Below the pieces are notes generated by a model. That model made no database searches, was not told the DNA's origin, and saw only the letters and a program-made list of their open reading frames with translations. From Acidobacteriota bacterium (GTDB lineage: Bacteria; Acidobacteriota; Thermoanaerobaculia; Multivoradales; JBCCEF01): 34,088 bases of DNA. Below, piece by piece: positions 7,063 to 29,197 of the stretch. The position numbers were made by a program, and so were the translations under genes. The stretch is taken from the NCBI GenBank assembly GCA_039028635.1, contig JBCCHV010000070.1, positions 1-34,088 of the forward strand, read 5' to 3'. Each line of letters opens with the position of its first letter. Within the stretch, counting starts at the first letter, position 1.

Positions 7063-8739
7063 ATGCGCCCAGCCGTGCGACACCTCGCCCTCATCCCCTG
7101 GACACGTTTGGTCGTGGTCGCCTCGGCGGCCCTGCTTCTGGCCCTCTTCGCGAGCTCCGAAAACGCGCCCACGGCGGCCCTCGAAAGCTCTTGGCTGACC
7201 GCCGTCGCCACCCTCGCCCTGCTGGCCTCGGCCTTCGTCGGCGGTCGCTTCTTCCTCCCCGCCGCACTGCTTCTGCCGTTGACCATCCTGGCACTGCCGG
7301 CGGGCCCCGGCCGCGGCACCGTGGTCGGTCTGCTGGCGGTGATTTTGGTGGTGTCCGAGGGGTACCAGGCCTGTGCTCGCGATTGCCCGCGCTGGAGCGA
7401 GCGGTTCGCCCTCCTCGGTCCGCTGGCGCTGGCCCTCCACGGCTTGCTGCGTGGCCCCGCCCTGCTGCAAGGCGGCGAGTCCTGGGAGCGGTTCGCGCTC
7501 CTGCCGCTGGCCGCCGCCGCGGTGCTGGCGCTGATTCCGGATTTGCGCCGGTCGGCCCTCGCCGGCGCGGCGGTGGTGGTACTCGCGCCGGGATTCAATC
7601 TGGTCGCCGTCTTGACCCTCGGCGTCCTCGCCGCTGGTGATCGATTGCGCCAACGTCCCGCCCTGAGCCCCAGCCTCCTCGCCCTCGGACTGCTCGCCGC
7701 CCTGTTCCTGCGTGAGCCGCGAGCCGCCGTCGTCGCCCTCGCCGCCGCCTTGGTCCTGACTCGCCGGCCTCTCGCCCTGGCCAGCGCCGGAGTCCTCGCC
7801 GTCGGTCTCGCCCTGGGGTTTCAGCTGCGGCCTTGGCCCGAGATCGGCTCGCTGGCGGCCTTCGCCATCGTCCTCATGCCCTTGGTTCTGCCGACGCTGC
7901 CCAGCAGCCGTAGAGGTTGGCCTCTCGGCCTGGCTCTGCTGGCGGTCTGGCTGGCCGCCGGCGCTGCCGTCCCCGGCGCTCCGGCGCTGGTGGCTCCTCT
8001 CGCCTTGGTCGCTCTCCTCGCCGAACCAGCACCTGCGCGCACCGTCCAGGGCACCTGGACCTGTGCGCTGCTGACCGGCACCGCCCTGGCGGCCGGCTAC
8101 CCCTGGCTGCGCCTCGACCCGCTGGGCGCCTGCCTGCGGGGATTCGGCATGCAGGGCGACTGGGACAGCATGGCGCTGGCTTTGCTCGCCATGATCGCCT
8201 TCGCCTGGCTCGGCAGACGCTTCGGTCACCCGCTGCGCTGGGCGGCGATCGGGCTGACTTTGGCGCTAGCCCTCACCAACGGACCGCGCCTCGAAGCCGT
8301 CGCCACCGGACCGCCCTGGGTCCTCGACCAGAAAACGCCGCGCGCCGTCGTCGAGGTCGCGCCGCCCCTGCAGCGGCTGGTCCTCTCGACTCATCTCGCC
8401 CAGGCCGCCGAGCTACCACCCGAAACCGAGGTGGCTCGCCTGAGCCTGCTCGACATCCAGGGCAATGTCCTCCAGGAATGGCCCGTGGCGAGCGGTGTCG
8501 ATACCAATGAATGGGCCGCCCGCAGGTCCGACCTCGCGGCCTTGCCGCAGCTCGCCGAACCGGTGCCCTGGAGCGGCTGGCTGGCGGCCGGTGATCCACC
8601 CTTCTTCGGGGCCCTCTATCGCGCCGACTTCACCGTCGACGACAGCGGCGCCAAGGCCAGCCATCTCGTGCTCCGGCGCAACGACGAGCTGCCAGAGGGG
8701 GTCGAGATCCGCCTCTTCCGGGTCGAGGTAAAGCGATGA
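7063..8739 (+). CDS. Large polytopic membrane protein, first gene of a glycosyltransferase operon
   Basis: A 558-residue protein I cannot assign to a named family. Roughly the first 415 residues are almost continuous hydrophobic helices (about 12-14), rich in Leu, Ala and Gly, with short Arg/Pro-rich loops. From about residue 420 to the end it becomes a soluble, probably beta-rich domain (starting LDQKTPRAVVEVAPPLQRLV and containing LSLLDIQGNVLQEWPV). That architecture (membrane body plus C-terminal beta domain) is also seen in the next gene, suggesting a related role in a surface-glycan or lipid-linked sugar pathway. The stop overlaps the next start by four bases (ATGA), so the two are translationally coupled. 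The ATG lacks a strong Shine-Dalgarno. Confidence 0.7.
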   Translation: MRPAVRHLALIPWTRLVVVASAALLLALFASSENAPTAALESSWLTAVATLALLASAFVGGRFFLPAALLLPLTILALPAGPGRGTVVGLLAVILVVSEGYQACARDCPRWSERFALLGPLALALHGLLRGPALLQGGESWERFALLPLAAAAVLALIPDLRRSALAGAAVVVLAPGFNLVAVLTLGVLAAGDRLRQRPALSPSLLALGLLAALFLREPRAAVVALAAALVLTRRPLALASAGVLAVGLALGFQLRPWPEIGSLAAFAIVLMPLVLPTLPSSRRGWPLGLALLAVWLAAGAAVPGAPALVAPLALVALLAEPAPARTVQGTWTCALLTGTALAAGYPWLRLDPLGACLRGFGMQGDWDSMALALLAMIAFAWLGRRFGHPLRWAAIGLTLALALTNGPRLEAVATGPPWVLDQKTPRAVVEVAPPLQRLVLSTHLAQAAELPPETEVARLSLLDIQGNVLQEWPVASGVDTNEWAARRSDLAALPQLAEPVPWSGWLAAGDPPFFGALYRADFTVDDSGAKASHLVLRRNDELPEGVEIRLFRVEVKR

Positions 8740-10919
8740 GCCAGGCGCTCCTTCTCGCCGCTGGGCTGCTGGGTTCTTGGCTGGTCGCCCGCTGGGGTCC
8801 GCTGGCGCCGGCGGACCCCTTGCGCACCACCCTGATCGCCGTGCCCTTGGTCATCGGAGCTTTGCTTTGGATCGAGCGCCGTAGCGTCGCACTCGGGGGA
8901 CGAAGAATCGCCACCGGGGTCAGCACCTGGCAAGGCATTGCCGGCCTCGCTTTGGTGGCGGCCACCCTGCTGCGGACTGCGCTCGCCGCTGATCTGCCGG
9001 CCGGCCCGCTGTTCGCGGCTTGGGTCCTGCTGCTCGCTCACCGGGTGGCGCACCAGGTTGTCGCCCTCCGGCCACTCCTCGGAAAGGCGCTGCCGCGACG
9101 CCCCTCGCTGCTCTTCTTCCTGCTGCCATTGGTGGTCTATGGCGCCCTGATTCCCTGGTCCACCCACCACCGGCCGCCGGACGGCGACGAGCCCTTCTAT
9201 CTGCTCATCACCCACAGCCTGACCCACGATTTCGATGCCGACCTGACCAACAACTATCAGCAGGGCGACTGGCGCTTCTTCATGGACCGCCCCCTCGAGC
9301 CGCAACCGGGGGACCCGGTCGGACCGAATGGCGAGCTCTACTCGCGCCACAACGAAGCGCTGCCGATGTTGTTGGTGCCGGCCTATGCCCTCGGCGGGCG
9401 CCTCGGAGCTCTCGGCGCGATGGCCGCGCTGACCGCCGCCCTCGCCTGGTTGACGCTGCGCGTCGCCCGCCACTACGCCCCGGCATTCCCCGGCGAAACC
9501 CTCCTCGCCTGGTCCCTCCTGGCCTTCGCGCCGCCGCTCCTTCTCTACAGCTACCAGGTGTGGGTCGAAGTGCCGGCGGCACTGCTCGGTCTGATCGCCC
9601 TCGACTGGATTCACGACGGCCGCGGCCGCCCCTGGAAAGCCCGGCGCTGGCTGCTCCTCGCCCTGCCGTTGATGCTCCTGCCACTGCTCAAGATTCGCTT
9701 CATGCTGCTGGCGGCGCCACTCCTCGCCCTCGGCTGGTGGTATTCCGGCCGCCGGCTGCGCCCGGCGATCATTCTGGGGGGCGCCCTCGGCGCCCTCGGC
9801 GTCGGCATCCTGATCTACAACCAGTGGCTCTACGGCAATCCCCTGAAGATTCACACCTGGGGTGAGCTGGAGCCCACCCGCTACGGCTTGATCGAGTATC
9901 TCAAGGGCAGCAGCGGCCTGTTCTGGGACTGCGCCTTCGGCTTGATCGCCTGCGCTCCTCTGTGGGGCTTGCTGGTTCCGGCCATTCTGCGCCGTCGGCG
10001 CCAGCCGGGCGATCACACCGGCCGTTTGTTCTTCGATCTGGTGGCCTTCACCGCCCCTTACCTGCTGATCGTCGTACCACGCTCCGAGTGGTACGGCGGC
10101 TGGTCGCCGCCCTTCCGCTACGCCCTGGTGGCCCTGCCGCTGCTCGCCCTCGCCCTCGCCCCGCTCCTCGCCGAGCGCCGCCGCGGCGGCAGCCGCGCCC
10201 TGATCACCGCCCTCGGCCTCGGCACCGTGGCGCTGACCCTCTGTTGGCTGGTGGTCCCGGGCTGGACCTACAACGTCGCCGACGGCCGCAACTTTCTGCT
10301 CGACGCCTTCGCCAACCGCACCGGCCTCGATCTGGCGCGCTTCTTCCCCAGCTCGATCCGACCGCGCTGGGCCACCTGGCTGTGGCCCAGCCTCGGGGCG
10401 CTGGCCCTATGGTTGGGCTGGCAAGGTCCGCGGCGGCTACGCCGTGCTCCCCTCTGGGGGGCCGCCGCCAGCCTCGGCCTGGTGGCCGGCCTCTGGCTGG
10501 CGGCGGAAAGGCTGCCCACCACCACGGTGCAGTTCGAAGATCACCAGGTGGCCAAGAGCGGCGGTCACGTCTTCCCCGATCGCTGGGTGATCGAGCGCCG
10601 CCGGTTCACCGGCGGCTGGACCCTGCGCGAAGGCGAGACGGTGACCGCCCCGGTGATCGCCGGCAGCGGCGCCGCCAGCCTGCGCCTGCACCTACAGTTC
10701 GTCCGCAACAAACGCGCTCCCCTGGACCTCGAGATTCGGGCCGGCGATCAGCTCCTCGAAACCTGGCGAGCGCGCCACGACCGGCGCTGGAGCTGGGTCG
10801 AAGTCGGGCCCTTCGAGTGGCCCGAGGGAGCGCCGCTGGTGATCGCGGCGCGGTTACCCAAGAAGCGTGGCCGTCCCAACGGCGTCGTGCTCGACCGCGC
10901 GGAGCTCCACTGGTGGTGA
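8736..10919 (+). CDS. GT-C-type membrane glycosyltransferase (ArnT/PMT-like)
   Basis: A 727-residue polytopic protein. After about four membrane helices comes the loop HHRPPDGDEPFYLLITHSL (residues 144-162), whose D149/D151/E152 cluster matches the acidic first-loop motif of GT-C enzymes that take sugars from polyprenyl-phosphate donors. About eight more helices follow, with an RSEWYGGWSPPFRYAL loop near residue 450 typical of such proteins. The last 150 residues or so are soluble and beta-rich, ending in LDRAELHWW, possibly a carbohydrate-binding jelly-roll. Predicted role: transfer of a lipid-linked sugar onto a glycan or protein on the outer face of the inner membrane. Start and stop both overlap the neighbouring genes by four bases, indicating a tight operon. 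Confidence 0.78.
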   Translation: MSQALLLAAGLLGSWLVARWGPLAPADPLRTTLIAVPLVIGALLWIERRSVALGGRRIATGVSTWQGIAGLALVAATLLRTALAADLPAGPLFAAWVLLLAHRVAHQVVALRPLLGKALPRRPSLLFFLLPLVVYGALIPWSTHHRPPDGDEPFYLLITHSLTHDFDADLTNNYQQGDWRFFMDRPLEPQPGDPVGPNGELYSRHNEALPMLLVPAYALGGRLGALGAMAALTAALAWLTLRVARHYAPAFPGETLLAWSLLAFAPPLLLYSYQVWVEVPAALLGLIALDWIHDGRGRPWKARRWLLLALPLMLLPLLKIRFMLLAAPLLALGWWYSGRRLRPAIILGGALGALGVGILIYNQWLYGNPLKIHTWGELEPTRYGLIEYLKGSSGLFWDCAFGLIACAPLWGLLVPAILRRRRQPGDHTGRLFFDLVAFTAPYLLIVVPRSEWYGGWSPPFRYALVALPLLALALAPLLAERRRGGSRALITALGLGTVALTLCWLVVPGWTYNVADGRNFLLDAFANRTGLDLARFFPSSIRPRWATWLWPSLGALALWLGWQGPRRLRRAPLWGAAASLGLVAGLWLAAERLPTTTVQFEDHQVAKSGGHVFPDRWVIERRRFTGGWTLREGETVTAPVIAGSGAASLRLHLQFVRNKRAPLDLEIRAGDQLLETWRARHDRRWSWVEVGPFEWPEGAPLVIAARLPKKRGRPNGVVLDRAELHWW

Positions 10920-24174: not shown

Positions 24175-25273
24175 GGAACGGCGCACCTTCGCCGGTGCGT
24201 CGCGGGTGGACAGCGGCCTGCTGGCCGCCACCCTCTTGCTCGCCGCCATCGGCCTGGCGACGGTGCAATCAGCGAGCGCCGAGCTCAGCATCGACTACCT
24301 GCCGCGGCAGGCCGTCTGGGTCGGTCTGGGCCTGGTGCTGCTGCTGGTCACCTTGGCGATCGATTACCACGACCTGGTGGACTTCTCGCCCTTTTTCTAC
24401 CTCGGCGGGCTCGCCTTGCTGGTGGTGGTCCTGATCTTCGGCGAAGGCCCCGGCGGCACCCGTTCCTGGCTCACCATCGGGGGTGTTCGGCTGGGCCAGC
24501 CGGCGGAGTTCGCCAAGCTCACCACCGCCCTGTTCCTGGCCCGCTACCTGGCCTCCGCCGGTGAGCGCCACCTCGACCTGCGCCAGATCGCCACCGCCTG
24601 CGCCATCGTCGGTATGCCGATGGCCTTGATCGCCCTCCAGCCGGACCTCGGCAGCGCCGCCATGTTCGTGCCCCTGGCCGCCGGCATGATGCTGATCGCC
24701 GGCCTTCGCCTGCGCTTTCTGATCGCCACCGCCCTGGTGGTGCTCGCCCTCGGAGCGGTGGGCTGGCACTTCGGCATGAAGGACTATCAGCAGGAGCGGG
24801 TGATCACTTTCCTATCCCCCGAAAGCGATCCCCTCGGTGCCGGCTACCAGGTGCAGCAGAGCAAGATCGCCGTCGGCTCCGGCGAGCTCACCGGCAAAGG
24901 CTACGGCCAGGGCACCCAGAGCCAGCTGCGCTTCCTGCCAGCCCGCCACACCGACTTCGTGTTCGCCGTGCTGGCCGAAGAATGGGGCTTCTTCGGCGTC
25001 GCGGTCGTTCTCGGCCTCTACCTGCTCTACATGGTGAGTGCCCTGCGCATCGCCCTGCGAGCGCGCGATCGCGGCGGCATCCTGCTGGTGGTCGGCCTGA
25101 TCTCCCTGCTCGGCTTCCACGTCGCCTACAACACCGCCATGGTGGTCGGCCTGCTGCCGATCACCGGCATCCCGCTGCCCTTTCTCTCCTACGGCGGCTC
25201 CTTCACCCTGATCAACTTCATCGCCACCGGCCTGATCCTGGGCATCGACCTGCGCCGCTACGTCAATCGTTAG
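24137..25273 (+). CDS. rodA: Peptidoglycan glycosyltransferase RodA (SEDS family)
   Basis: A 378-residue polytopic SEDS protein that polymerises lipid II with PBP2. Signatures include AVWVGLGLVLLLVTLAIDYH in the N-terminal half, the RLGQPAEFAKLTTALFLARYL region, LQPDLGSAAMFVPLAAGMM, KGYGQGTQSQLRFLPARHTD, FAVLAEEWGFFGVAVV, and the C-terminal LPITGIPLPFLSYGGSFTL. About ten membrane helices. The ATG lies inside the 3' end of mrdA; the first 25 or so residues are polar and poorly conserved, so a start a few codons downstream cannot be excluded. Coupled to mrdA, it completes the elongation synthase module. Confidence 0.95.
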   Translation: MKSSSRAALGLPEERRTFAGASRVDSGLLAATLLLAAIGLATVQSASAELSIDYLPRQAVWVGLGLVLLLVTLAIDYHDLVDFSPFFYLGGLALLVVVLIFGEGPGGTRSWLTIGGVRLGQPAEFAKLTTALFLARYLASAGERHLDLRQIATACAIVGMPMALIALQPDLGSAAMFVPLAAGMMLIAGLRLRFLIATALVVLALGAVGWHFGMKDYQQERVITFLSPESDPLGAGYQVQQSKIAVGSGELTGKGYGQGTQSQLRFLPARHTDFVFAVLAEEWGFFGVAVVLGLYLLYMVSALRIALRARDRGGILLVVGLISLLGFHVAYNTAMVVGLLPITGIPLPFLSYGGSFTLINFIATGLILGIDLRRYVNR

Positions 25274-25289
25274 AGGCCAAAGTCAGGGG

Positions 25290-25295
25290 TACAAT
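25290..25295 (+). promoter_or_regulatory. Candidate -10 element (TACAAT) in the rodA-rng gap
   Basis: TACAAT (5 of 6) starts 16 bases after the rodA stop and would give a leader of about 70 bases for rng. No good -35 is seen, so rng may equally be read through from the rod operon. Confidence 0.3.
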
Positions 25296-25317
25296 TCGGC
25301 CGACCGGCGACGTGGTA

Positions 25318-25343
25318 ATTCGTCACAGTGATTCGCCACAGTG
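25318..25343 (+). repeat. Tandem 13-base repeat in the rng leader
   Basis: ATTCGTCACAGTG (25318-25330) is followed directly by ATTCGCCACAGTG (25331-25343), identical except for one base. It lies between the candidate -10 and the rng ribosome-binding site, so it would be in the 5' untranslated region if that promoter is used. Two adjacent protein or RNase recognition sites are conceivable. Confidence 0.6.
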
Positions 25344-25371
25344 CCGCCCCGGAGTGAGGAGACGACGCCCC

Positions 25372-26865
25372 TTGGCCAACAAAATGCTCGTTGAGAGCGA
25401 TCCCCACCAAACTCGTATCGCGGTGCTCGAGGACGATCGCCTGACGGAGATCTTCGTCGAGCGCAAGCGCCACCGGGGTCTGGTGGGCAACGTCTACAAG
25501 GGACGGGTGACCCGTGTTTTGCCTGGCATGCAGGCGGCCTTCGTCGACATCGGCCTCGAGCGTGACGCCTTTCTCTATGTCAGCGACGTGGTGGAGAACG
25601 TCGACGCGGTGGAAGGCCTGGATCTGGCGCAGGAAGATGTTCACGATCTGACGGCGCCGGAGGACCTCTCGATCGACGATCTCCTCAAGGCCGGCCAGGA
25701 AATCATCGTGCAGGTGGTGAAGGACCCCTTGCCCAACAAGGGAGCCCGCATCAGCACCCACGTCACCCTGCCCGGACGCTATCTGGTGCTGCTGCCCACG
25801 GTCCGCCACTTCGGGGTGTCGCGCCGCATCGAAGAAGAGGACGAGCGCAATCGCCTGATCGAGCTCCTCGAGGGGCTGCCGCCGGCGAGCGGCGGCTTGA
25901 TCGTCCGCACCGTCGGCGAAGGGCGCGAGCGGGATGACTTCACCAGCGACCTCGACTACCTCAACTCGCTCTGGCACCGGGTGCGCTCGCGGGCCTCGAA
26001 GGTTTCCGCACCGACCCTGCTGCATCGCGACCTCGACCTCGCCCTACGGGTGGTGCGGGATGTCGTGACCCAAGACTTCACGGTGCTGTGGGTGGACGGC
26101 GAAGAGACCTACGAGCGCATCGTCGAGTTTCTCGACCAGGTGCAGCCGCGCCTGGTCGGCAAGGTCAAGCTCTATGGCCAGGACTCGTCCCTGTTCGAGC
26201 AGTTCGGCATCGAGACCCAGATCGAGGCCGCCCTGCGCAGCAAGGTCTGGCTCAAGTCCGGCGGCTACATCGTGATCAATCCCACCGAGGCACTGGTGGC
26301 GATCGACGTCAACACCGGTCGCTTCGTCGGGCAGCGGAACCTCGAGGACACGGTGCTCAAGACCAACCTCGAGGCGGTGCGCGAGATCGTCCGCCAGATT
26401 CGCCTGCGCGACCTCGGCGGCATTCTGGTGATCGACCTCATCGACATGGTCGAAGCGGAGCACCGCGAAGAGGTCTTCGCCCTGCTCGAGACCGAGCTCC
26501 ACAAGGATCGCGCCAAGACCAAGGTGCTGTCGATCTCGGAGTTCGGCCTGGTCGAGATCACCCGCAAGCGCAGCCGCGCCAATCTCCAGCGACTGCTCAC
26601 CCAACCGTGCCCCCATTGCAGCGGCTCGGGACGCATCCAGTCGCTCTCGACCATCTGCCTCAAGCTACGCCGGGAAGTGCTCAAGGTGGTCACCGGAGCC
26701 GCCGGCTCGGAGCTGCTGTTACGCGTCCACCCGGACGTTGCCCAGGCGCTGCAGGCGGATGAGCTGTCGATCCTCTCGGAACTCGAGCGCGAGCTCGGTG
26801 GCCGCATCCTGCTGCAGAGCGACCCCGAGCTGCACCAGGAAAACTTCAACGTGACGGAAGTCTAG
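25372..26865 (+). CDS. rng: Ribonuclease G/E family endoribonuclease
   Basis: A 497-residue single-strand endoribonuclease that processes rRNA and mRNA in the cytoplasm. An S1 RNA-binding domain is at the N-terminus (RHRGLVGNVYKGRVTRVLPG near 30-50), followed by the RNase H-like and DNase I-like core. The metal-binding aspartates are D312 in VAIDVNTGRFVG and D355 in VIDLIDMVE, 43 residues apart as in E. coli RNase E (303 and 346). The zinc-link CPHC (C413, C416) is 58 residues further, again as in RNase E. It ends soon after, without the long degradosome scaffold, so RNase G is the better name. TTG at 25372 is preferred because GAGGAG (25356-25361) is ten bases upstream; the in-frame ATG at 25384 would be 22 bases away. 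Confidence 0.94.
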   Translation: MANKMLVESDPHQTRIAVLEDDRLTEIFVERKRHRGLVGNVYKGRVTRVLPGMQAAFVDIGLERDAFLYVSDVVENVDAVEGLDLAQEDVHDLTAPEDLSIDDLLKAGQEIIVQVVKDPLPNKGARISTHVTLPGRYLVLLPTVRHFGVSRRIEEEDERNRLIELLEGLPPASGGLIVRTVGEGRERDDFTSDLDYLNSLWHRVRSRASKVSAPTLLHRDLDLALRVVRDVVTQDFTVLWVDGEETYERIVEFLDQVQPRLVGKVKLYGQDSSLFEQFGIETQIEAALRSKVWLKSGGYIVINPTEALVAIDVNTGRFVGQRNLEDTVLKTNLEAVREIVRQIRLRDLGGILVIDLIDMVEAEHREEVFALLETELHKDRAKTKVLSISEFGLVEITRKRSRANLQRLLTQPCPHCSGSGRIQSLSTICLKLRREVLKVVTGAAGSELLLRVHPDVAQALQADELSILSELERELGGRILLQSDPELHQENFNVTEV

Positions 26866-26980: not shown

Positions 26981-29197
26981 GTGGCGGCGCCACCGGCCTC
27001 TGCCGTGGCCGATTTCGGCGAGCCCTTCGAGGTGGAGGGCTTCGAAGGCCGGGTCGCGTCCGCCTACCAGCCCGCCGACCTGGCGGCGACGGTGGCCCAC
27101 GCCCTCGATCCGGCGGCGGCCATCGAAACCCTTCACTGGGGGCGCAACTACCTCTACCGAACCCTTTTCGAGACCGCCGACGGCAGCGTCGAGGTGGTGG
27201 TCAAGCAGTTCCGCAATGCCAGCCGCCGGCAGCGCCTCGATCGTCGAATCAAAGGCAGCAAGGCGGAGCGCAGCTGGCGAACGGCGGTGGCCTTCGGCGC
27301 CGCCGGCCTGTTGACCCCGGAGCCGGTGCTCCTCGCCGAGTCGAAGCGCCCGGACGGTCCCTCTTTCTATCTCTGCCGCTACCTCGGCGAAGTGGTCGAG
27401 GCGCGCTACTTCTTCCGCGCCCGCAATGTCGGTGAGGAAGGCCAGGAGTTTCCCCACCTCGACCCGGAGGCGGTCCTCACCGGCCTCGGCCAGAGCCTGC
27501 GGCGAATGCACGATGCCGGCTTCCTGCATCGCGACATGTCGAGTGGCAATGTCCTGATCGAGCCGCGGCGAGGCGACGGCGAAGGCCCGAACCTGGCCTT
27601 TCACATCATCGACCTCAACCGCACCCGCCGCCTCGCCTCCCTGTCGGACCGTCAGCGCAGCCGCGACCTCAGCCGCCTGATGATCTTCCGGCCAGAGGAT
27701 CAACGCCGCTTCCTCGACGCCTACTGGGGTCCGGCGAGTGAGCGCCAGCGAAACCTCTACCAGCGCTACCACCGCGGCTTCTTGAACAAAAACCGGATCA
27801 AGAAGCAGGTGCGGGGCCGACTTCGAGGGTTGACCCAATGGCTCCGCGACCTGGTGTTGCCGCGCCACGCCCACGCCCACATCCCGAACGTCCCGGAGGG
27901 CACCGAAACGCGCGAGAAGGTGGTCTGGGATCGCCTTTCGGATCAGCCTCACCAACACGCCGGCAAGCTCGAGAAGCTCGGCACCCGCATGGCCGACTTT
28001 CCCCAGCATGCGGCCGAGCTGGCCGCCGCCGCCGGCGCCCTACCGGCGGCTCGCAAACGCTACCGTGAGCTCACCGCCGACCTCTACCAGAGCCCCGCCC
28101 CGTGGCCCGGAGCCGGCATCTGCCTACGTCCCTGGCCGGAAGATCCGGAGGCCCTGCTGACCGCCGTCGACGAGCTCGGAGTCCGCCAGATCCTGCTCCG
28201 CCTCCACCCCTGGCAGGAAGACCACGGGGACGAGGAGAGCCTCGCCCGAGAGCTCGCCCAACGCGGCTACGAGCTGACCTTCGCGCTGCCTCAAAACCGT
28301 GAGCTGGTGCGCGACCCGGAGCGCTGGCGGCACGCCATCGAGGAGCTCGCCGAGCGTTTCCGACCCTTCGGCAGCACCTTTCAGATCGGCCAGGCGATCA
28401 ATCGCAGCAAATGGGGAGTGTGGAACCTGCGAGAGTACTTCGAGCTCGCCGAGACCGCCGCCGGCATTCTGCGACGGCGGCCCGGCACCCAGATCCTCGG
28501 CCCGGGCGTGATCGACTTCGAGCTCCACGCCACCGCCGCGGCTCTCAACTGGCGTCACACCGACCTCTGCTTCGACGCCATGGCCAGCCTGCTCTACGTC
28601 GACCGCCGCGGTGCTCCCGAGAATCGCCAGGTGGGCTTCGACACGGTCGGCAAGGTGACCCTGCTCAAGGCGATCGCCGAAACCGCCCGCAACTGTCGCG
28701 GCCGGAGCTGGATCACCGAAGTCAACTGGCCCCTCTGGGAAGGTCCCCACTCGCCCGCCGGCCGCTCCGTCTCGGTGAGCGAAGAAGTCCAGGCCCACTA
28801 CCTGACCCGTTACTTCTTGCTCGCCTTCGGCACCGGCCTGGTGGAGCGCATCTTCTGGTGGCAGTTGGTGGCCCGCGGCTATGGGCTGACCACCGAGGAG
28901 GACGGCGTCCTACGCCGCCGGCCGAGCTTCCACGCCCTCGCCTTCCTCGAGCGGGAGTTGCGCCACGGTCAGCTCGTCGGCCCCCTCGAAGTGGCGCCGC
29001 CGGCGCGAGCGATTCTCTACCGCAACGGCGGCGGAGACGCCGGGCTGATCGCTTGGTCGACGGAGGGCGAGGTCGAGGTCGAGCTGCCCGGCGTCGGCGG
29101 CGTCGGCCGCGACCTCACCGGTCGTGAGGTGAAGCTGCCCAGCCCCGGCCGAGCCCGCCTCGGACCGGGCCCGTCCTTCTATCCGTTCGAAGCTTGA
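26981..29197 (+). CDS. WaaP/InaA-type kinase fused to a GH-A-like (beta/alpha)8 domain
   Basis: A 738-residue two-domain protein. Residues 35-270 resemble LPS sugar kinases (WaaP/InaA/KdkA type): candidate ATP-binding K75 in VEVVVKQFRN, catalytic loop LHRDMSSGNVLI with D185, and metal-binding D211 in IIDLNRTR. An arginine/histidine-rich linker follows (270-370). Residues 375-680 resemble a clan GH-A glycosidase barrel: strand QIGQAINRSKWG (468-479), then ITEVNW with candidate nucleophile E580, then a small beta domain at the end. Where GH39/GH5 relatives show Gly-Asn-Glu-Pro, this protein has Gly-Gln-Ala-Ile, so the general acid seems lost. GTG start with AAGGGA about 11 bases upstream. No signal peptide, so it is cytoplasmic. 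The 3' end overlaps the next, convergent gene by 19 bases. Confidence 0.72.
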   Translation: MAAPPASAVADFGEPFEVEGFEGRVASAYQPADLAATVAHALDPAAAIETLHWGRNYLYRTLFETADGSVEVVVKQFRNASRRQRLDRRIKGSKAERSWRTAVAFGAAGLLTPEPVLLAESKRPDGPSFYLCRYLGEVVEARYFFRARNVGEEGQEFPHLDPEAVLTGLGQSLRRMHDAGFLHRDMSSGNVLIEPRRGDGEGPNLAFHIIDLNRTRRLASLSDRQRSRDLSRLMIFRPEDQRRFLDAYWGPASERQRNLYQRYHRGFLNKNRIKKQVRGRLRGLTQWLRDLVLPRHAHAHIPNVPEGTETREKVVWDRLSDQPHQHAGKLEKLGTRMADFPQHAAELAAAAGALPAARKRYRELTADLYQSPAPWPGAGICLRPWPEDPEALLTAVDELGVRQILLRLHPWQEDHGDEESLARELAQRGYELTFALPQNRELVRDPERWRHAIEELAERFRPFGSTFQIGQAINRSKWGVWNLREYFELAETAAGILRRRPGTQILGPGVIDFELHATAAALNWRHTDLCFDAMASLLYVDRRGAPENRQVGFDTVGKVTLLKAIAETARNCRGRSWITEVNWPLWEGPHSPAGRSVSVSEEVQAHYLTRYFLLAFGTGLVERIFWWQLVARGYGLTTEEDGVLRRRPSFHALAFLERELRHGQLVGPLEVAPPARAILYRNGGGDAGLIAWSTEGEVEVELPGVGGVGRDLTGREVKLPSPGRARLGPGPSFYPFEA

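Follow-up and report, generated by a model that had tools for sequence, protein, structure and literature searches.

The window considered here is a stretch of 34,088 nucleotides from an Acidobacteriota bacterium of the Thermoanaerobaculia (contig JBCCHV010000070.1 of assembly GCA_039028635.1), and the subject of the analysis is one gene on its forward strand at 26981-29197. The open reading frame starts with GTG, includes its stop codon and encodes a single fusion protein of 738 residues, in which a sugar kinase domain of the WaaP/KdkA type is followed by a barrel that resembles GH39 glycosidases in its predicted fold. In the alignments, the barrel has Glu at the position of the catalytic nucleophile and Ala at that of the general acid/base. 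The parts of the gene are listed below.

26981-29197, + strand: whole kinase-barrel fusion gene (open reading frame call, homologues)
27020-27850, + strand: WaaP/KdkA-type kinase domain, about residues 14-290 (PF06293 match, WaaP structure 6dfl match, homology from residue 14)
27203-27205, + strand: K75, ATP-binding lysine (Lys in 61 of 62 aligned kinase domains, one gap)
27533-27550, + strand: catalytic loop D185 to N190, DMSSGN (D185 and N190 each 62 of 62)
27611-27613, + strand: D211, metal-binding Asp of the DLNR motif (62 of 62)
27917-28960, + strand: GH39-like (beta/alpha)8 barrel with an N-terminal W..SDQP segment, about residues 313-660 (predicted model, fold search, hhalign)
28376-28417, + strand: strand-4 motif TFQIGQAINRSKWG, with A472 (28394-28396) at the position of the GH39 acid/base Glu
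28499-28522, + strand: strand-5 motif GPGVIDFE (D512 in 88 of 88 barrels; E514 Glu in 86, Asp in 2)
28586-28621, + strand: strand-6 motif SLLYVDRRGAPE, with L537, Y539, D541 and R542 (family alignment, comparison with the GH39 set)
28706-28732, + strand: strand-7 motif SWITEVNWP, with E580 (28718-28720) at the nucleophile position (alignments)
28970-29194, + strand: C-terminal beta-strand region, residues 664-738 (secondary structure of the predicted model)

A WaaP-type kinase with K75, D185 and D211 as its catalytic set had been proposed in the preliminary description of this DNA, and the proposal has held. The PF06293 model (Kdo/WaaP; cut-off 21.3 bits) matches residues 86-235 with a score of 36.4 bits, the WaaP structure 6dfl was matched by the whole predicted model in Foldseek with an E-value of 3.0e-10, and the three residues are in place and conserved as listed. 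Because K75, D185, N190 and D211 are conserved, the kinase half is probably an active enzyme. PF06293 is a broad family with 18 matches in the window genome alone, and the scores for two NCBIfam equivalog models lie below their cut-offs (27.8 versus 142 bits for KdkA, 21.7 versus 170 bits for RfaP). By these scores the kinase belongs to PF06293 without being a true KdkA or WaaP. By eye, and without the use of a predictor, the protein shows no signal peptide, and kinase homology begins near residue 14, in agreement with the absence of a signal peptide claimed earlier.

The model of the fusion protein, predicted with 100 sequences in the alignment, has a mean predicted local distance difference test score (pLDDT) of 94.6 and a predicted template modelling score (pTM) of 0.90, and it contains an eight-stranded barrel. 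The best Foldseek match of the model is PslG (4zn2, E 2.0e-18). In the VIA comparison, the GH39 structure 5jvk gave Z 31.4 with a root-mean-square deviation (rmsd) of 2.8 over 342 residues, and the three PslG entries gave Z 28.9-29.4 with rmsd 3.0-3.1 over 355-356 residues, the next row standing at Z 24.9. The model of a standalone barrel from a genome recorded as Campylobacterota (locus L102; pLDDT 92.2) behaves alike, with Z 30.1 for 5jvk and 29.5-29.9 for PslG. The barrel had earlier been placed in clan GH-A, with a fold other than a (beta/alpha)8 barrel named as the outcome that would speak against it; neither structure prediction nor fold search gave such a fold, and the closest structural matches are GH39 enzymes. 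The second outcome named there, another Glu at the end of strand 4 facing E580, was assessed by alignment, which puts A472 at the acid/base position (see below). The SDQP segment ahead of the barrel is present in standalone barrels too.

No Pfam or NCBIfam model covers the barrel, be it in the window protein or in the other barrels searched, one split barrel among them. The GH39 model PF01229 does not appear for the window protein with E<=1 as the limit, has no match in its own genome and is absent from the eight families that a set of 37 barrels gave at E<=0.1. Searches of solved-structure sequences with the protein or with the barrel profile returned nothing firm, IF-3 and 5jvk appearing at weak E-values.

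The relation to GH39 at residue level was obtained by profile-profile comparison. Thirty GH39-type loci were taken from genomes of the same phylum, of which 22 entered alignment A3 and 10 of those entered alignment A4. Eight loci were left out of these sets (L117, L123, L125-L128, L132 and L133), most of them without the Asn-Glu-Pro (NEP) motif in the frame used, and the invariance of NEP in A3 is therefore partly due to selection. The barrel profile aligned with A4 at a probability of 98.2 (E 2.9e-14) and with A3 at 98.25 (E 2.6e-14) in hhalign. Both comparisons gave the same alignment, in which FQIGQAIN lies without gaps on WxIWNEPN, so that the acid/base Glu is matched by A472, the Asn before it by Q471, the Pro after it by I473 and the final Asn by N474. 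WITEVNW lies on WLTEVGW with E580 on the nucleophile Glu, L537 falls on a strand-6 His which is invariant in A3, and Y539 falls on Tyr. The Arg which is nearly invariant in GH39 strand 2 aligns with L405 and not with the conserved R407. That the Glu of NEP marks the acid/base position rests on Glu165 of PslG (PMC11912335) and on four matches which were not selected for the motif and show it (L157, L170, L172 and L173). The spacing between residues 472 and 580, 108 residues, is close to the 111 between Glu165 and Glu276 of PslG in the same text (PMC11912335), and strand 4 (466-469) and strand 7 (576-581) of the model agree with the alignment. The earlier reading of QIGQAIN at 468-474 and of ITEVNW with E580 was correct as to sequence, and its assignment of A472 to the acid/base position is reproduced here. 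Judged by model and alignment, the barrel is thus GH39-like by fold, but it lacks the residue set that defines a GH39 hydrolase.

The substitution extends through the family. Among 88 distinct barrels, position 472 is Ala in 81 and Gly in six, with one row uncovered, so that Glu occurs in none of the 87 covered rows, a point which the preliminary description had proposed to check; position 580 is Glu in 87 with one row uncovered. In the main family E580 is strictly conserved in the covered rows together with Y539, N582 and W583, and N474, R475, K477, W478, D512, R542 and K558 are likewise invariant there; D541 is Asp in 86 of the 88 and Asn in two. Since FQIGQAIN was one of the six patterns used in scanning for 80 of the loci, column 472 was recounted on loci retrieved with a protein or profile query. 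All 42 strong matches had Ala at 472 and Glu at 580. The 42 were those of 51 matches with E<1e-100; the nine dropped were L155 (see below) and eight distant matches, two of them in L171. This recount is not independent, as L001-L030 also belong to the pool behind the 88 rows and several other genomes are shared. Sixty genomes drawn as relatives of L102 yielded a barrel in 10, three of them L102, L105 and L108 themselves, with eight Ala and two Thr at 472 and Glu at 580 in all 10. In the barrels L187-L193 of these relatives, which carry Ala or Thr at 472, strand 8 reads WHQL instead of WWQL.

NEP is present in the dropped distant matches L157, L170, L172 and L173. Because the distant same-phylum relatives L170, L172 and L173 keep NEP, the loss of the acid/base residue is probably derived. 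The proteins of these three loci (L170:824-2182, - strand; L172:747-2033, - strand; L173:98-1468, + strand) have an N-terminus that looks lipoprotein-like by eye, an intact NEPN and a GPA..D stretch, and they are candidate catalytic relatives of the acid-less family. The six barrels with Gly at 472 are all from Verrucomicrobiota (L094, L095, L099, L101, L103 and L104); L095 is a split pair in the cultured Pelagicoccus mobilis. In these rows the helix ahead of the barrel has a hydropathy of 1.56-2.06, and it is a possible membrane anchor. A membrane segment at the same place in the window protein, which would put its barrel in the periplasm, was considered unlikely, the hydropathy of that helix being just 0.49.

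Kinase and barrel belong together well beyond the window. The protein was matched in 77 of 98 genomes searched, its own included, some of the matches being to the kinase only; in the window genome the single match to the whole fusion protein is the fusion itself. The relatives with titled records come mostly from Acidobacteria/Thermoanaerobaculia. The earlier suggestion to look for other fusions was productive, since they were found in both orders and alongside split neighbouring gene pairs. The 80 loci comprise 39 kinase-barrel fusions, one barrel-kinase fusion (L093) and 40 barrels without a kinase in the same open reading frame. A kinase was found in 69 of the 80, and three of the 11 loci without one (L084, L088 and L096) are cut by a contig end. 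In 25 of the 29 split loci with a kinase, a candidate barrel start lies between -11 and +19 nucleotides from the kinase stop, the offset being +1 in 14 of the split loci; L077, L097, L098 and L106 fall outside this range. Outside Thermoanaerobaculia the halves are mostly separate, closely spaced genes with the kinase upstream. By record title the barrel carriers include Acidobacteriota, Aminicenantes, Verrucomicrobiota, Gammaproteobacteria, Campylobacterota, Planctomycetota and others. In a quick barrel tree with long branches flagged, 40 kinase-barrel fusions form one group with a support of 99 in the Shimodaira-Hasegawa-like approximate likelihood ratio test (SH-aLRT). Two barrels recorded under other names, L042 (Deltaproteobacteria) and L085 (Clostridiales), lie inside the fused Acidobacteriota and the Aminicenantes groups and are likely mislabelled bins or transfers.

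The same-phylum sample contained a second fusion in the reverse order, L155 (940-3144, + strand), in which Thr stands at 472 and His at 580. It has further lost R407 (Asp), Y539 (Phe) and N582 (Cys) and retains N474, R475, R477, W478, D512, E514, E541, R542 and K558. Because L155 lost the nucleophile yet keeps the charged set, the charged pocket can outlive the nucleophile. Its residues suggest a binding-only pseudoglycosidase in one lineage; no second full-length copy of the L155 type was found in the 80 genomes searched.

The preliminary description had also proposed to examine the neighbours of other fusions, and in several phyla the genes around the module point to a lipopolysaccharide (LPS) inner core and lipid A context. 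Neighbour clusters were formed over the 80 loci and one representative per cluster was annotated. Pairs of the Aminicenantes type are surrounded by genes for a GT9 heptosyltransferase (12 loci), an O-antigen ligase (8), a GT4 glycosyltransferase (9), a methyltransferase (15) and a PfkB kinase (8, one of them L082). In the Verrucomicrobiota loci L094, L099 and L103 an MsbA-like ABC transporter adjoins the pair on the opposite strand; that of L094 scores best with the NCBIfam MsbA model, at 462 bits against a cut-off of 602 and hence below it. In Gammaproteobacteria a lipid A acyltransferase adjoins the kinase in L097 and L106, and ManC-type and GT4 genes are near in L098. In L092 the gene ahead of the barrel is a Methyltransf_4 of the tRNA type, which is not an LPS gene. 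Two relatives of L102 (L201 and L202) have GT9-type genes on both sides of the barrel, the downstream one being heptosyltransferase II (194.8 and 155.9, respectively, against a cut-off of 134.6) and the upstream one below any cut-off. Both have HldE near the barrel, with both domain models above cut-off and the full model below, and L202 also has HldD and GmhB above cut-off. The barrels of L203 and L204 do not adjoin a GT9-type gene. In L102, L105, L108 and L082 a PMT/ArnT-like transferase, for which the best NCBIfam model is ArnT, below cut-off, follows the barrel. L155 stands divergent from GT9, an MsbA-like transporter, a lipid A acyltransferase, glycosyltransferases and another WaaP-type kinase, the last a second kinase gene of this type within its lipid A/inner-core cluster (L182:5199-6104, PF06293 E 6.1e-19). 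In many other bacteria the halves are adjacent genes, frequently in the company of genes for outer-membrane sugars, so that kinase and barrel make up a real conserved two-gene module.

In the window itself mreB, mreC, mreD, PBP2, rodA and RNase G precede the fusion gene in this order, and M16 peptidases follow on the opposite strand. The frame of RNase G (24982-26862, + strand) shares about 290 nucleotides with the end of rodA; since its conserved domain begins near residue 262 of the frame, the true start is probably further downstream. Farther away, two adjacent open reading frames on the + strand (7063-8736 and 8736-10916; 558 and 727 residues) have hydrophobic starts and no Pfam match at 1e-3 and 1e-5.

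The reading that we tentatively favour is that the fusion is a module for the lipid A and inner core of LPS, in which an active kinase is joined to a barrel whose role is to bind, and not to cut, an anionic core glycan. The kinase half would phosphorylate a core sugar, as its family suggests. Because the general acid/base is missing, cleavage of ordinary glycosides by the usual route is not expected of the barrel. On this reading its most likely role is to bind a core glycan that carries phosphate or carboxylate, with N474, R475, K477, W478, D512, E514, D541, R542 and K558 as the conserved contact set, the basic residues holding the phosphate or carboxylate, and either to present the glycan to the kinase or to check and license the kinase's substrate. 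As no signal peptide is visible and the kinase needs ATP, we infer that it acts in the cytoplasm on a lipid A-core sugar, and the module would work on the inner membrane, at its cytoplasmic side. The window genome encodes a member of the WaaA-type Kdo transferase family, as do 39 of the 40 genomes searched, its own included. Substrate, binding role and coupling are what this reading adds to the observed fold, kinase set, absent acid/base residue, pairing and fusion in both orders, and LPS context elsewhere. The overall interpretation given in the preliminary description is borne out in part: the kinase type, the GH39-like barrel, the missing acid/base residue and the lack of a visible signal peptide stand, and recognition of the kinase substrate by the barrel is not among the parts borne out.

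Several observations weigh against the favoured reading. No LPS gene adjoins the fusion in the window, where it is surrounded by cell-shape, peptidase and housekeeping genes, and at the other fused loci no LPS gene appears among the annotated neighbours. When 74 neighbours were pooled across mixed phyla, LPS-type genes were a minority (among the families listed, 25 of 112, there were four ABC transporter membrane domains, four PMT and two lipid A acyltransferases), so that the LPS signal comes from specific lineages. The invariance of E580, N582 and W583 exceeds the apparent needs of a mere binding site, the pocket geometry is read from alignments, and L155 is a single sequence. The kinase-barrel link, moreover, is strong and not strict. 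No kinase of the WaaP/KdkA kind was found in the genomes of L102, L105, L108 and G494, and the genome of L087 gave weak generic kinase matches (best E 3.2e-5), the completeness of these genomes not being given; genome G088, from the class of the window, has a related kinase and no barrel was found in it. Of the eight loci without a kinase whose genomes were searched for one (L087, L102, L105 and L108 among them), the other four have a related kinase elsewhere in the genome (L082, E 2.3e-24; L091, 9.4e-21; L092, 1.4e-20; L107, 5.8e-43). Seven further barrel-bearing relatives of L102 were examined, and all but G494 have the kinase, four of these six on the contig of the barrel at a distance of about 2.3 to 5.1 kb.

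The best surviving alternative, which we consider possible but rather unlikely, is that the barrel is still an enzyme and performs retaining glycosyl transfer without a general acid. E580 would form the glycosyl-enzyme, R475, K477, R542 and K558 would hold the phosphate-type leaving group of the donor, and the sugar would then go to an acceptor in the LPS core, which might be the phosphate that the kinase has added. Because E580 is so strictly kept, this is nearly as attractive as binding; Y539, N582 and W583 are kept with it, and the four basic residues, in the regions of strands 4 and 6, are invariant. That the barrel persists in the genomes which gave no kinase of this type fits as well. 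ArnT-like transferases use lipid-phosphate sugars, and transferases resembling them, of the PMT families and below the ArnT cut-off, are among the neighbours. Such a barrel might be the natural counterpart of laboratory ligases carrying acid/base mutations. In the design of thioglycoligases, the nucleophile is kept and the acid/base residue is replaced. Thioglycoligases made from retaining glycosidases are reported (PMC7519651); these are engineered, whereas the barrel family is natural, and the likeness is one of residue pattern. Against transfer, no candidate donor was identified, L155 retains the charged residues without the nucleophile, and the GH39 strand-2 Arg falls on L405. A wider version of this idea appears doubtful, less probable than acid-free transfer by itself: the family would have passed from cutting to building, its acid catalyst gone and its nucleophile kept, so that the LPS inner core receives a sugar from a donor activated by phosphate while the fused or neighbouring kinase acts on the same core sugar, and some lineages would later have lost the nucleophile and kept the docking.

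It is improbable that the barrel is an ordinary hydrolase whose general acid has moved to another residue. D512, E514 and D541 offer themselves for this role by the conservation given above. D512 was nevertheless set aside as replacement acid: relatives which keep NEP (L170, L172 and L173) also have Asp in that column, and it is therefore probably not the substitute. Other residues stand in place of the Asn-Glu pair and of the His on strand 6, and a cytoplasmic hydrolase within LPS synthesis has no obvious substrate. A role in cell-wall or cell-shape control in place of LPS is the least probable account, as the mre context, although it precedes the gene in the window and recurs through the RNase G cluster in 20 of the 80 loci, all 20 of the fused type, looks lineage-specific because other fused loci differ (alanyl-tRNA synthetase in L062, LepA in L056) and the split pairs of other phyla sit among LPS genes.

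WaaP, the LPS core heptose kinase, and KdkA, the Kdo kinase, are known as stand-alone kinases. The fusion resembles them in PF06293 membership, catalytic set, 6dfl match and the LPS neighbourhood of its relatives, and differs in falling below both equivalog cut-offs and in having an extra barrel domain or partner gene. The closest comparison for the barrel is PslG of Pseudomonas aeruginosa, described in PMC11912335 and PMC9075953 as a GH39 retaining endo-beta-glucosidase. The likeness covers the barrel and the C-terminal strand region (4zn2, Z 28.9, rmsd 3.1, 356 residues, 20% identity), the nucleophile Glu (Glu276 in PslG, E580 here) and, by those accounts, the tie of a glycosidase-type protein to a polysaccharide synthesis pathway. 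PslG retains its acid/base Glu165 and cuts glycan as described there, whereas Ala is found here, in a barrel fused to a kinase and without a visible signal peptide. A further parallel, by description and not by sequence, is gene 2898 of Acinetobacter baumannii, a predicted glycosyl hydrolase amid core genes in the lipooligosaccharide (LOS) core locus; its deletion is reported to truncate the outer core in part, and the authors call its role unclear (PMC10936431). No description of a kinase-barrel pair or fusion was found in literature titles and the starts of abstracts, with subscription journals and preprints outside this coverage.

If the favoured reading is true, a conserved glycosidase-fold partner without a general acid would represent a step of outer-membrane assembly not described before. 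It may also bear on why the Acinetobacter core locus needs a glycosyl hydrolase gene. The family offers a clean case in which a catalytic residue is absent family-wide and the rest of the pocket is fixed, and through the gene pairs it is open to direct testing.

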